Positions 7,598-24,244 of a stretch of DNA of 64,000 nucleotides are shown in pieces. Origin of the DNA: Lactobacillus helsingborgensis (GTDB lineage Bacteria > Bacillota > Bacilli > Lactobacillales > Lactobacillaceae). The stretch spans positions 1,029,755 through 1,093,754 of the forward strand of contig NZ_KQ034046.1 of assembly GCF_000970855.1 (NCBI RefSeq). The letters run 5' to 3'. A model generated the notes under the pieces. The model saw only the letters and a program-made list of their open reading frames with translations. It ran no database searches and was not told where the DNA came from. Made by a program: the position numbers and the translations under genes. Position 1 is the stretch's first letter. Every line of letters begins with the position of its first letter.

Positions 7598-7850
7598 AAA
7601 AAAGCACTCATCCTAACATAAGGACGAGTGCTTCGTGTTACCACCTTTATTTTATTTATTACTCACGTAATAAATCTCACTAGCTATCTACCAATAGCTT
7701 GCAATTCTAACGGATGCAACTCCGCCACTAGCTAAATATCACCAGCAGTCATCATTTCGAGCCCATGTTCACTACACTTCGTTAACTAACTCTCACCAAA
7801 CGTTAGCTCTCTTTATTAACTTGAGTAATAGTTACTCTGCTTTTCAAGAT
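7598..7850 (-). promoter_or_regulatory. T-box riboswitch, methionine-specific, controlling metQNI
   Basis: Read on the minus strand, the leader carries the conserved T-box sequence AAGGTGGTAACACG (7647-7634) next to a strong terminator hairpin (7633-7602, arms AAGCACTCGTCCT/AGGATGAGTGCTT followed by a T-run). Upstream are the AG-box region GTGAGAGTTAG and a specifier segment GAACATGGGCTC with ATG at 7766-7764, a Met codon. Uncharged tRNA-Met would stabilise the antiterminator and switch on metQNI. Confidence 0.92.
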
Positions 7851-7874
7851 GTATTAATTATTTAATTGTTTATT

Positions 7875-21555: not shown

Positions 21556-22842
21556 ATGTTAAAATCAGTCATTGAAAATGTTCATGCACTGGAAATCTAT
21601 GATTCACGTGGTAACCCAACAGTTGAGGCTTTTGTAACCTTATCAAACGGTGTTGTTGGTAAAGCTGAAGTTCCATCAGGTGCTTCGACTGGTGAAAACG
21701 AGGCCGTTGAATTACGTGATGGTGGCAGCCGTGTTGGCGGCAAGGGCGTATCCAAAGCCGTTGAAAACGTAAACACTGAAATTGCCAAAGCATTAAAAGG
21801 TTTGGATCCACACGATCAGGCAAACATTGACCGCGTAATGATTGAATTAGATGGTACCCCTAACAAGGCTAAGCTTGGTGCTAACGCTATCCTGGGTGTA
21901 TCAATGGCTACTGCAGCTGCTGCAGCAAAAGATAATCACCAACCTTTATACAGATACCTTGGTGGTACTGATCTTGAAATGCCTCAAACTTTCCACAACG
22001 TTATTAACGGTGGTGAGCATGCTGACAACGGTATTGACGTTCAAGAATTCATGATCACTCCAGTTAAAAAGACTTCATTCCGTGATGGTTTTGAAAAGAT
22101 CGTTAACACATACCACACTTTGAAGAAGGTTCTTGAAGACATGGGTTACGAAACTGGCCTTGGTGATGAAGGTGGTTTCGCTCCTAACATGAAGAACTCT
22201 GAAGAAGCTTTACAAGCTTTACACGACGCTATCGTTAAGGCTGGTTACAAGCCTGGTGAAGATATTGCCATTGCGTGTGACTGTGCTGCTTCATACTTCT
22301 ACAACAAAGAAGACGGCAAGTACCACTTCGAAGGTAAAGTATTTAACGATGAAGAATTAGCTCAATACTACGACAAGTTACTTGACGAGTTCCCAGAATT
22401 AATTTCAATTGAAGACCCATACGATGAAAATGATGTTGACGGCATGATTAAATTTACTCAAAGCCACAAAGACAGAATTCAAATTGTTTTGGATGACTTC
22501 ATTTGTACCAACCCTAAGCTTTTGACTAAAGCTATTAAGGAAGGTGCCGGTAACGCTTCATTAATCAAGTTAAACCAAATTGGTACTGTTACTGAAACTT
22601 TGGAAACTATCCGTCTTTCACGTAAGAACGGATACAACACCATGATTTCTCACCGTTCAGGTGAAACTGGTGACACATTTATCGCTGACTTTGCCGTTGC
22701 TGTTAACGGTGGTCAATTAAAGACTGGTGCCCCAGCTCGTTCAGAACGTGTTGAAAAGTACAACCGTTTGCTTGAAATCGAAGAAGAACTTGGCGAAGGC
22801 GAGCGTTTAGCTACATTCCCAGACAGTGTTGACAAAGACTAA
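21556..22842 (+). CDS. eno: Enolase
   Basis: Converts 2-phosphoglycerate to phosphoenolpyruvate; 428 residues. Metal and catalytic residues are intact: VPSGASTG loop, NGGEHADN, VQEFMI, GDEGGFAP (acidic catalytic residue), the Asp of ACDCAAS, SIEDPYDEND, VLDDF, the catalytic Lys in SLIKLNQIG, and SHRSGET. Some surrounding residues differ from the B. subtilis type, as I recall for acidophilus-group enolases. A strong AGGAGG lies before the ATG. Codon use is that of a highly expressed gene. In lactobacilli it is also a surface plasminogen-binding protein. Confidence 0.97.
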   Translation: MLKSVIENVHALEIYDSRGNPTVEAFVTLSNGVVGKAEVPSGASTGENEAVELRDGGSRVGGKGVSKAVENVNTEIAKALKGLDPHDQANIDRVMIELDGTPNKAKLGANAILGVSMATAAAAAKDNHQPLYRYLGGTDLEMPQTFHNVINGGEHADNGIDVQEFMITPVKKTSFRDGFEKIVNTYHTLKKVLEDMGYETGLGDEGGFAPNMKNSEEALQALHDAIVKAGYKPGEDIAIACDCAASYFYNKEDGKYHFEGKVFNDEELAQYYDKLLDEFPELISIEDPYDENDVDGMIKFTQSHKDRIQIVLDDFICTNPKLLTKAIKEGAGNASLIKLNQIGTVTETLETIRLSRKNGYNTMISHRSGETGDTFIADFAVAVNGGQLKTGAPARSERVEKYNRLLEIEEELGEGERLATFPDSVDKD

Positions 22843-22851
22843 TTTGTTAAT

Positions 22852-22881
22852 AAAAAAGCCTGCAATATTGCGGGCTTTTTT
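22852..22881 (+). terminator. eno terminator
   Basis: The GC-rich hairpin AAAAAAGCCTGCA/TGCGGGCTTTTTT is followed by T's. Confidence 0.95.
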
Positions 22882-22918
22882 AGTGTCAAAATTTTTAAAA
22901 ATGTGTTTTTAGCATAAA

Positions 22919-22946
22919 TTCAAGATTTAAACTTCTATGCTATAAT
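22919..22946 (+). promoter_or_regulatory. Promoter upstream of the tracr-like element and CRISPR array
   Basis: An extended -10 TGCTATAAT (TATAAT at 22941-22946) with a weak -35 TTCAAG (22919-22924, 16-bp spacing). The transcript would start near 22953, cross the anti-repeat and run into the array. A hairpin ATCAGGA/TCCTGAT (22979-22985 with 23004-23010) lies in the leader. Confidence 0.6.
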
Positions 22947-23031
22947 TTGAGTAAACATTTAATTTCTAAAACTGCATTATCAGGACTAGATTAGCTACCT
23001 TTTTCCTGATATTGCTGCAAAAGCTGGTCGT

Positions 23032-23091
23032 GTTTCTAATATTATTTGGTTTAATTCAACCATATTATTAAAATTTGATGATAAAACATCG
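23032..23091 (+). ncRNA. tracrRNA-like anti-repeat plus nexus-like hairpin fused to the CRISPR array
   Basis: Bases 23032-23074 can pair with about 29 of the 36 repeat bases, counting G-U pairs. The lower stem is TAAAAT (23069-23074) with repeat GTTTTA. A bulge TATTAT faces repeat GA. The upper stem starts CAACCA (23057-23062) with TGGTTG and runs to TTCTAAT at the far end. A bulge between a 6-bp lower stem and a long upper stem is the type II-A tracrRNA:crRNA layout. A hairpin GATG/CATC (23077-23080 with 23087-23090) sits where the nexus is expected. Repeat 1 begins at 23092, so the usual tracr 3' hairpins and terminator are missing. Confidence 0.75.
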
Positions 23092-23703
23092 GTTTTAGAT
23101 GGTTGTTAAATTGATGATGATTAGAACAACAGGTCATTTATACTAGCGCTGATAATAGTTTTAGATGGTTGTTAAATTGATGATGATTAGAACACTTTCT
23201 GCATTGTCCAGTTATCAAGCCCCGTTTTAGATGGTTGTTAAATCGATGATGATTAGAACTGATTGGCGATGCTATTGGAGACGGTATCGGTTTTAGATGG
23301 TTGTTAAATCGATGATGATTAGAACAGGTTAGCAAGTCGGATTTGATGAGCAACAGTTTTAGATGGTTGTTAAATCGATGATGATTAGAACTCTTTTTTA
23401 TCGCGAATTATCATGTATACAGTTTTAGATGGTTGTTAAATCGATGATGATTAGAACCATTAAGTCAACTTACACTGACAAAAAAACGTTTTAGATGGTT
23501 GTTAAATCGATGATGATTAGAACCCAAGTAGTACAGAACACTACCAGAACCTTGTTTTAGATGGTTGTTAAATCGATGATGATTAGAACTAGGTCTTGTT
23601 AACTTAACACCAGCTACAAGTTTTAGATGGTTGTTAAATTGATGATGATTAGAACAGTTTACTACTGAAAGCAACGAGACTATGGGTTTTAGATGGTTGT
23701 TAA
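23092..23703 (+). CRISPR. Type II-A-like CRISPR array, 9 full repeats plus a truncated one, 9 spacers of 30 bp
   Basis: The 36-bp repeat begins GTTTTAGATGG and ends GATTAGAAC. Full repeats start at 23092, 23158, 23224, 23290, 23356, 23422, 23488, 23554 and 23620; an 18-bp truncated repeat is at 23686-23703. All nine spacers are 30 bp. Repeat position 21 is T in repeats 1, 2 and 9 and C in repeats 3-8. The GTTTTAG start and the degenerate right end show left-to-right transcription. The repeat resembles the L. gasseri type II-A repeat. No cas9, cas1, cas2 or csn2 occurs in the window. Minus-strand open frames across the array are repeat translations, not genes. Confidence 0.97.
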
Positions 23704-23735
23704 GCAAAAGCAAAATATTACCATAAGCTCACAAT

Positions 23736-23766
23736 AAAAGGCTTGCTTTTAAAGCAAGTCTTTTTG
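23736..23766 (+). terminator. Terminator after the CRISPR array
   Basis: The hairpin AAAGGCTTGCTTT/AAAGCAAGTCTTT followed by TTT lies 32 bp after the truncated last repeat and would end the pre-crRNA. Confidence 0.85.
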
Positions 23767-23911
23767 TTTCGCCTATTTAACCAGCCAATTAGAAAATACA
23801 ATCAATACTAGTCTTTTACAATATCTGTTCATTAAGTTCTTCATGCTAAATAACCAATAATTTTTAAAATATGATACAGACAATGTGGCAAGATCTGCAA
23901 ATTGATTAAAA

Positions 23912-24244
23912 CTAATTTTTATTTACTTTCTTATTGAATTCTCTCTTTGAAACATACTGGATTTTCTTAACATACTGACCTCTATGATCAATTTTGATAT
24001 ATTGCTTAGAAGGGTCGTAACCACCTACTCTTCTGATCCTATATGGAAGTTTCTTACCAGTCTTGGCATCATAAGCTTGAACGTTAAAATACTTTTGCGT
24101 ATTCTTTTCTACTTGAGCATAACTTTTAGTTTCGGGAATTGTAAGATTGAAACGATCGAAAATTCCATTATGAATAAAAAAGGGAAAACAAAAGAAAACT
24201 GCAATTGCTAACACAAAGACAAAAAATATTTTTCTAAAATTCAT
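23912..24244 (-). CDS. YxeA-family (DUF1093-like) exported protein
   Basis: A 110-residue protein with an N-terminal signal/anchor helix (residues 4-22) and a small beta domain resembling the YxeA family: TKSYAQV, then KYFNVQAYDAKTGKKLPYRIR, the YIKIDHRGQYVKK strand, and a Lys-rich end. The function of the family is unknown; members are often secreted and near transporters. AAGGAG lies before the ATG. Monocistronic between the CRISPR array and a divergent P-type ATPase. Confidence 0.7.
   Translation of the reverse strand: MNFRKIFFVFVLAIAVFFCFPFFIHNGIFDRFNLTIPETKSYAQVEKNTQKYFNVQAYDAKTGKKLPYRIRRVGGYDPSKQYIKIDHRGQYVKKIQYVSKREFNKKVNKN

Follow-up and report, generated by a model that had tools for sequence, protein, structure and literature searches.

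Type II-A CRISPR systems are said to form a leader-repeat hairpin, reportedly the finding of Liao et al. in 2022. PMC13187072 and PMC12080349, both of which cite Liao et al. 2022, describe this hairpin: in a II-A system with the guide-repeat configuration, the leader is transcribed and base-pairs with repeat 1, a source of extraneous crRNA if left unpaired. Remote arrays, which carry the consensus repeat of a distant cas locus and a leader of their own far from any cas genes, are described in PMC12814883. For lactobacilli, including L. gasseri and L. jensenii, PMC6070500 reports a processed ldrRNA from repeat 1 in small RNA-seq and lays out the modules of the II-A tracrRNA, among them a repeat complementarity with a bulge. 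In S. thermophilus, spacer integration is guided by the repeat-proximal 10 bp of the leader, as stated in PMC6895254.

The array that follows eno in the 64-kb window, the whole stretch of DNA that was analysed, can be set beside each of these systems. Together with its leader hairpin it resembles the fold already described for type II-A and not a new kind of guide RNA; the differences are that the hairpin here belongs to a remote array and that in related cas loci its arm runs into the end of csn2. Measured against the remote arrays of PMC12814883, nothing essential differs. The locus comprises the following features.

21556-22842: eno, the upstream neighbour of the array
22938-22946, plus strand: TGCTATAAT, a candidate extended -10 element in a promoter for the leader
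22953-23033, plus strand: upstream part of the leader, with no detectable relation to csn2
23034-23061, plus strand: 5' arm of the leader-repeat-1 hairpin, previously annotated as an anti-repeat
23063-23091, plus strand: leader end, forming the lower part and loop of the hairpin, previously annotated as bulge, lower stem and nexus
23092-23685, plus strand: CRISPR array of nine 36-nt repeats and nine 30-nt spacers
23092-23127, plus strand: repeat 1, the 3' arm of the leader-repeat-1 hairpin
23458-23487, plus strand: spacer 6, matching an antirepressor-type gene in another genome of the genus (G027)
23686-23703, plus strand: truncated, leader-distal terminal repeat of 18 nt
23742-23766, plus strand: stem followed by a T-run, a possible array terminator (the terminator scan gave a minus-strand reading only)
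23912-24244, minus strand: YxeA-family gene, the downstream neighbour of the array

With a period of 66 nt and nine distinct spacers out of nine, the array has the regular repetition of type II-A. The first-pass annotation, made from the letters alone, had taken the stretch before repeat 1 for half of a tracrRNA fused to an array lacking cas genes. Its coordinates hold, with TATTAT at 23063-23068, TAAAAT at 23069-23074, GATG/CATC at 23077-23080/23087-23090 and repeat 1 at 23092, and tblastn with the genome's own Cas proteins indeed found no cas gene in the 64 kb (best E 0.48), but the genome has an intact locus. On the same contig, ~690 kb from the eno array, lie cas9, cas1, cas2 and csn2 with an array (C2:354.6-361.6 kb). 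This Cas9 has 1400 aa and is free of internal stops, and all four proteins score above the NCBIfam cut-offs; Pfam PF09711 missed the Csn2. The cas-locus array has nine full repeats of the same sequence as window repeats 1, 2 and 9, and equals the eno array in length with nine spacers in each. A matching cas9-cas1-cas2-csn2 set with the same repeat in the same genome is one of the marks of a remote II-A array.

In the cas9-cas1 interval we found a tracrRNA candidate, encoded on the opposite strand, that forms 35 pairs with the repeat at -37.1 kcal/mol. Moreover, TATTATTAAAATTTGATGATAAAATATCG stands after the csn2 stop and before the cas-locus array, and window positions 23063-23091 agree with it in 28 of the 29 bases; comparable leader ends precede repeat 1 in other Lactobacillus cas loci. 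Because it is near-identical to the cas-locus leader end, 23063-23091 is the end of a CRISPR leader and not a tracr nexus, and with a separate tracrRNA candidate at the cas locus the identification of the upstream half as a tracrRNA is not supported. Judged by the modules of a Lactobacillus II-A tracrRNA, as given in PMC6070500, 23032-23091 shares the anti-repeat (33 pairs, -19.9 kcal/mol) but has no nexus after the lower stem, where the CRISPR leader end stands, and neither terminal hairpins nor a terminator, since repeat 1 directly adjoins. The annotation had itself named three findings that would count against it; none of them holds literally, but two hold in substance. Of one, a complete cas operon and tracrRNA elsewhere with a different repeat family, we found the operon and a tracrRNA candidate, but the repeat family is the same; as to another, relatives with the same junction next to cas genes, the junction of leader end and repeat does have cas genes on its 5' side in relatives. 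The third, a lack of pairing above shuffled controls, is contradicted by the folds described next. At the level of sequence, then, the same repeat, a nearly identical leader end and a separate tracrRNA candidate are found at an intact II-A locus. We consider it quite probable that the region 23063-23703 after eno, which includes a leader of its own, is a second type II-A array, remote from the cas genes that act on it in trans, and that RNA from this leader pairs with repeat 1.

The repeat complementarity reported earlier is borne out and exceeds shuffled controls. When 23032-23127 is folded, 33 of the 36 bases of repeat 1 pair with the 60-nt leader (23032-23091), and none of 500 dinucleotide shuffles of that leader equals either the pair number or the energy. 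If the last 30 leader bases are held fixed and the rest shuffled, 5/500 reach the pair number and 1/500 the energy; the corresponding counts are 0/500 and 5/500 for a 70-nt leader and 2/500 and 1/500 for a 130-nt leader, and a 208-nt fold has z = -2.78, with 0/200 shuffles as good. In these folds of leader plus repeat 1, a transcript is able to fold on itself, as had been proposed. The promoter suggested for it fares less well: the extended -10 TGCTATAAT is present at 22938, and recurs in the eno locus of a related genome (G066, locus L006), but the pattern occurs 11 times in the 64-kb window against 5.3 expected, which makes it weak promoter evidence, and a sigma-70 scan found no -35/-10 pair at the site. 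At the gathering score, Rfam reported T-box and tRNA and nothing else in the 64-kb window; the T-box leader lies at 7617-7856 on the minus strand (RF00230, 96.5 bits). A plasmid search with 22850-23790 gave no match.

Under our preferred explanation, Cas1, Cas2, Csn2 and Cas9 from the distant cas locus would add spacers at 23091/23092, with 23063-23091 as the probable stretch on which Cas1-Cas2 are anchored, and the array would be transcribed from within the leader, from an RNA start that we infer to lie near 22953. The tracrRNA of the cas locus would mature the crRNAs of the eno array in trans, while the leader RNA would pair in cis with repeat 1. This hairpin may compete with the tracrRNA for repeat 1, lowering the yield of useless leader-derived crRNA (ecrRNA, named ldrRNA in lactobacilli) to the benefit of spacer-1 crRNA, in the way described for II-A systems. 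If processed, the repeat-1 product of the eno array would correspond to the ldrRNA or ecrRNA of lactobacilli in PMC6070500, and a full block of repeat 1 is unlikely because processed ldrRNA from repeat 1 has been seen in lactobacilli. In a crude cofold, the tracrRNA reached -25.8 kcal/mol with leader plus repeat 1 and -27.5 kcal/mol with spacer 1 plus repeat 2; since it binds the former nearly as well, any block would need to be kinetic. The function of the hairpin is thus a predicted one.

Comparison with the cas loci of the genus suggests where the 5' arm of such a hairpin usually lies. Twenty loci were tried and 19 analysed, including the genome's own (L101 was dropped for too few repeats, and in L106 and L111 repeat 1 was placed by pattern). 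At least 25 bases of repeat 1 paired with the 70-nt leader in 15 of the 19, and 11/19 by pair number and 17/19 by energy stood above 95% of shuffles. The stop of the upstream open frame, csn2, precedes repeat 1 by 32 or 33 bases in 17/19 loci, so the 5' arm includes the last csn2 codons, and in 17/19 loci 15-22 of the paired bases fall inside the csn2 coding sequence. G065 (L109) has a shortened leader end, with the csn2 stop 21 rather than 32 bases before repeat 1 and 30/36 bases paired. Outside the genus, where we took the best 30 loci of 99 genomes with a Csn2 match (L164 being mostly N, and the repeat shortened in L164, L171 and L179), six stood above 95% of shuffles by pairs, seven by energy and two by both.

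Covariation was assessed in 13 of 21 prepared leaders, 12 from cas loci and one remote; six cas-locus leaders of other register or length (G020, G046, G029, G017, G035, G065) and two eno leaders (length) were left out, and two of those excluded fitted the register poorly, with 25 and 22 of 34 pairs. Across the 13 leaders, 94.3% of cells pair, against 26-46% when the partner is slid; shuffles pair 93.1% of cells, and 2/500 reach 94.3%. Ten cells show a two-sided change versus 3.7 in shuffles (1/500), and the covariation score is 0.182 versus 0.149 (1/500); neither the number of pairs with a two-sided change (3; 139/500) nor that of further pair types (20; 392/500) rises above shuffles. Two of the three two-sided pairs are synonymous third positions in csn2 (Asp GAT/GAC and Tyr TAT/TAC), and the remaining one is an Ile/Val first position.

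In most of the Lactobacillus cas loci analysed, then, the 5' arm would consist of the last csn2 codons and a short leader, whereas the eno arm lies outside any csn2 gene. Tentatively, and with rather more doubt than confidence, we propose that in Lactobacillus II-A loci the final six codons of csn2 also serve as 5' arm of the hairpin and lock csn2 to the repeat, that the arms of remote arrays, released from this bond, keep or regain their pairing, and that the present genome holds a pair of hairpins, one weak and bound to csn2, the other strong and free of it, sharing the same Cas9 and tracrRNA. Among the matches listed in a literature search on leader hairpins and csn2, titles and abstract openings name no csn2-coded arm, which is no proof of novelty.

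Six Lactobacillus loci share 99% identity with the window's eno, including those of the bee species L. laiwuensis, L. kullabergensis, L. huangpiensis and L. melliventris, and the closest relative at this site is the MAG locus L006, taken to belong to G066. Up to 4 kb after eno, 15 of the 16 Lactobacillus eno loci compared have no leader match, L006 being the exception; L006 alone among 80 eno loci has the repeat pattern, and among 75 genus genomes the full eno leader was matched only in the window genome (G000) and G066. There the leader is 98% identical, with the same eno junction and an identical 5' arm (23034-23061), and with a 60-nt leader 29/36 bases of repeat 1 pair (shuffles 14/500 by pairs, 0/500 by energy). 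A tracr half fused to the array through loss of a cas operon at eno, one of two explanations in the first-pass annotation, was considered and rejected: such a loss is not needed because the other eno loci compared lack leader and repeat pattern, and the leader end is of the cas-locus type.

Where cas genes have been lost in relatives, the loss is at the usual cas site. In G066 that site, which can be told by its neighbours, oxidoreductase and glycosyltransferase-type genes as at the intact locus, retains only a cas9 fragment with an internal stop joined to one repeat; the MAG is 54% complete and may have cas genes elsewhere. An N-terminal cas9 fragment of ~280 codons with an internal stop adjoins a single repeat in G066 (L147), G064 (L148/L110) and G006 (L146), with the same flanking genes as the intact locus, and perhaps these junctions go back to one shared deletion. 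G006 also holds a lone leader end with half a repeat (L103, C1:121101-121146), a relic of another array, which together with the bases that follow folds on the leader with 28/36 paired.

Two further arrays stand apart from an intact csn2. In G032, 208 kb separate a second array from the one at the cas locus; this second array is directly preceded by broken csn2 pieces (residues 111-222), and its hairpin, with a 60-nt leader, pairs 30/36 bases (shuffles 1/500 by pairs, 3/500 by energy). In G002 (L105, contig 53), which gave no Cas9 match, a lactate-dehydrogenase-like gene (288.6 bits, below the 303.55 cut-off) is followed at a contig end by a leader and at least three repeats, and 31/36 bases pair (shuffles 4/500 by pairs, 61/500 by energy). 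Since pairing is found in G066, G032 and G002, arrays without an intact adjoining csn2 can keep it. These cases bear on an origin for the eno arm that is compatible with our preferred explanation and that we regard as evenly balanced: the arm may derive from a csn2 3' end copied from the cas locus along with leader and array, which drifted once non-coding while its pairing was kept. The csn2 pieces upstream of the still-paired G032 array fit such a history, as does the likeness of the eno arm to the genome's own csn2 tail: the alignment has 30 identities (0/500 shuffles) and runs on without a break into the shared leader end. That likeness could, however, arise from pairing alone, as in an arm formed de novo under the same repeat; upstream of the pairing region there is no csn2 likeness, as local alignment of 22953-23033 with five csn2 3' ends did not exceed shuffles and tblastn found no csn2 match between eno and the array, and when the arm is aligned with other csn2 tails, shuffles do as well in 78 of 500 cases for G032, 235 of 500 for the G032 remnant and 37 of 500 for G062.

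It is unlikely, in our estimation, that the leader-repeat pairing is incidental, a chance product of A+T-rich sequence beside an ordinary remote array, although several results lean that way. As a plain two-strand duplex, leader and repeat reach -19.9 kcal/mol, a value that 61 of 3934 random 60-nt pieces taken from the window also attain and that is only moderately unusual; without the leader end the duplex falls to -15.7 kcal/mol, matched by 463 of 3934. Among control repeats 2-9, three of eight (repeats 3, 5 and 9, with 20, 21 and 23 of 36 bases paired and 15, 13 and 7 of 500 shuffles) beat 95% of shuffled upstream 30-nt spacers, so the repeat pairs readily. The hairpin at the cas locus of the same genome is weak: a 60-nt leader pairs 15/36 bases of repeat 1, not above shuffles, a 130-nt leader pairs 0/36, and a 70-nt leader pairs 22/36 in another register (shuffles 41/200 by pairs, 4/200 by energy), with 33 of 34 consensus pairs still possible there, several as G-U. 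Synonymous codon identity at the csn2 end is not raised either (0.68 versus 0.62, reached by 2999 of 10000 draws, in 12 of the 13 csn2 genes, G037 having no frame found, and with four of the last six codons countable), and this ordinary value speaks against a strong constraint at the coding level. Against chance stand the leader shuffle tests, the recurrence of the pairing in the genus and some covariation.

Somewhat less probable still is that 23034-23061 is a duplicated tracrRNA anti-repeat that came to lie before a mobilised leader-array unit and has since decayed, either functionless or with a role in cis. Among the sequences compared, the arm does align best to the anti-repeat of the genome's own tracrRNA candidate (score 46, 32 identities, 0/500 shuffles), ahead of the csn2 tail (40, 30 identities) and the reverse-complemented repeat (34, 28 identities), but such likeness is expected without descent because the same complementarity acts on all of them. 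Moreover, a CRISPR leader end, not a tracr nexus or terminator, follows the arm, and its pairing with the repeat is far weaker than that of the tracrRNA candidate (-19.9 versus -37.1 kcal/mol). A permuted, self-contained guide in the order anti-repeat, nexus, repeat and spacer, which RNase III would process without a trans-acting tracrRNA, as once envisaged, and which Cas9 would likewise use without one, is highly improbable, for although the computed cis hairpin might be an RNase III substrate, the genome has a separate tracrRNA candidate, the nexus-like hairpin is the leader end that also precedes cas-locus arrays, and such a guide could serve repeat 1 alone of the nine.

The spacers and repeats give some indication of how a second, remote array served in trans, as we prefer to read the locus, may have grown. 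The G066 eno array has 11 spacers, none in common with the window, the longest shared stretch being 8 nt; its six leader-side repeats share one variant and its five older repeats another, which fits growth at the leader end. From the sequences, this split and the lack of shared spacers are as expected if spacers were added after G000 and G066 separated. The GGCTG variant of the six newer G066 eno repeats (L006 11537-11902) also occurs in the single repeat at the G066 cas site (L147), a hint of exchange between the two sites. The G066 eno array also has two identical spacers, 3 and 4 (L006 11705-11800), a pattern that either tandem duplication or double acquisition may have produced. In the window, spacer 6 is identical over 26 consecutive bases (2-27 of 30; positions 1, 28 and 30 differ) to an antirepressor-type gene in G027, a phage-type gene adjoining a DnaC-like loader gene, and this makes spacer 6 the only one of the nine with a convincing match among 75 genus genomes. 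G039 and G003 were set aside as targets, their matches being weak (22 nt, 95%). Phage records gave no match to the nine spacers, one search returning only E of 2 or more, and IMG/VR held no exact 20-mer of spacers 1-3 (three of the nine).

The array is ordinary in kind, and the csn2-coded arm is its interesting part. Should the hairpin have no function, the eno array is a remote array of the ordinary sort; should it work, one genome would hold two arrays that share repeat, Cas9 and tracrRNA but differ in their leader hairpins, and the proposed role of leader RNA in spacer priority would become comparable inside one cell. The csn2-coded arm, if true, would mean that the end of a coding sequence has been shaped by a CRISPR repeat.
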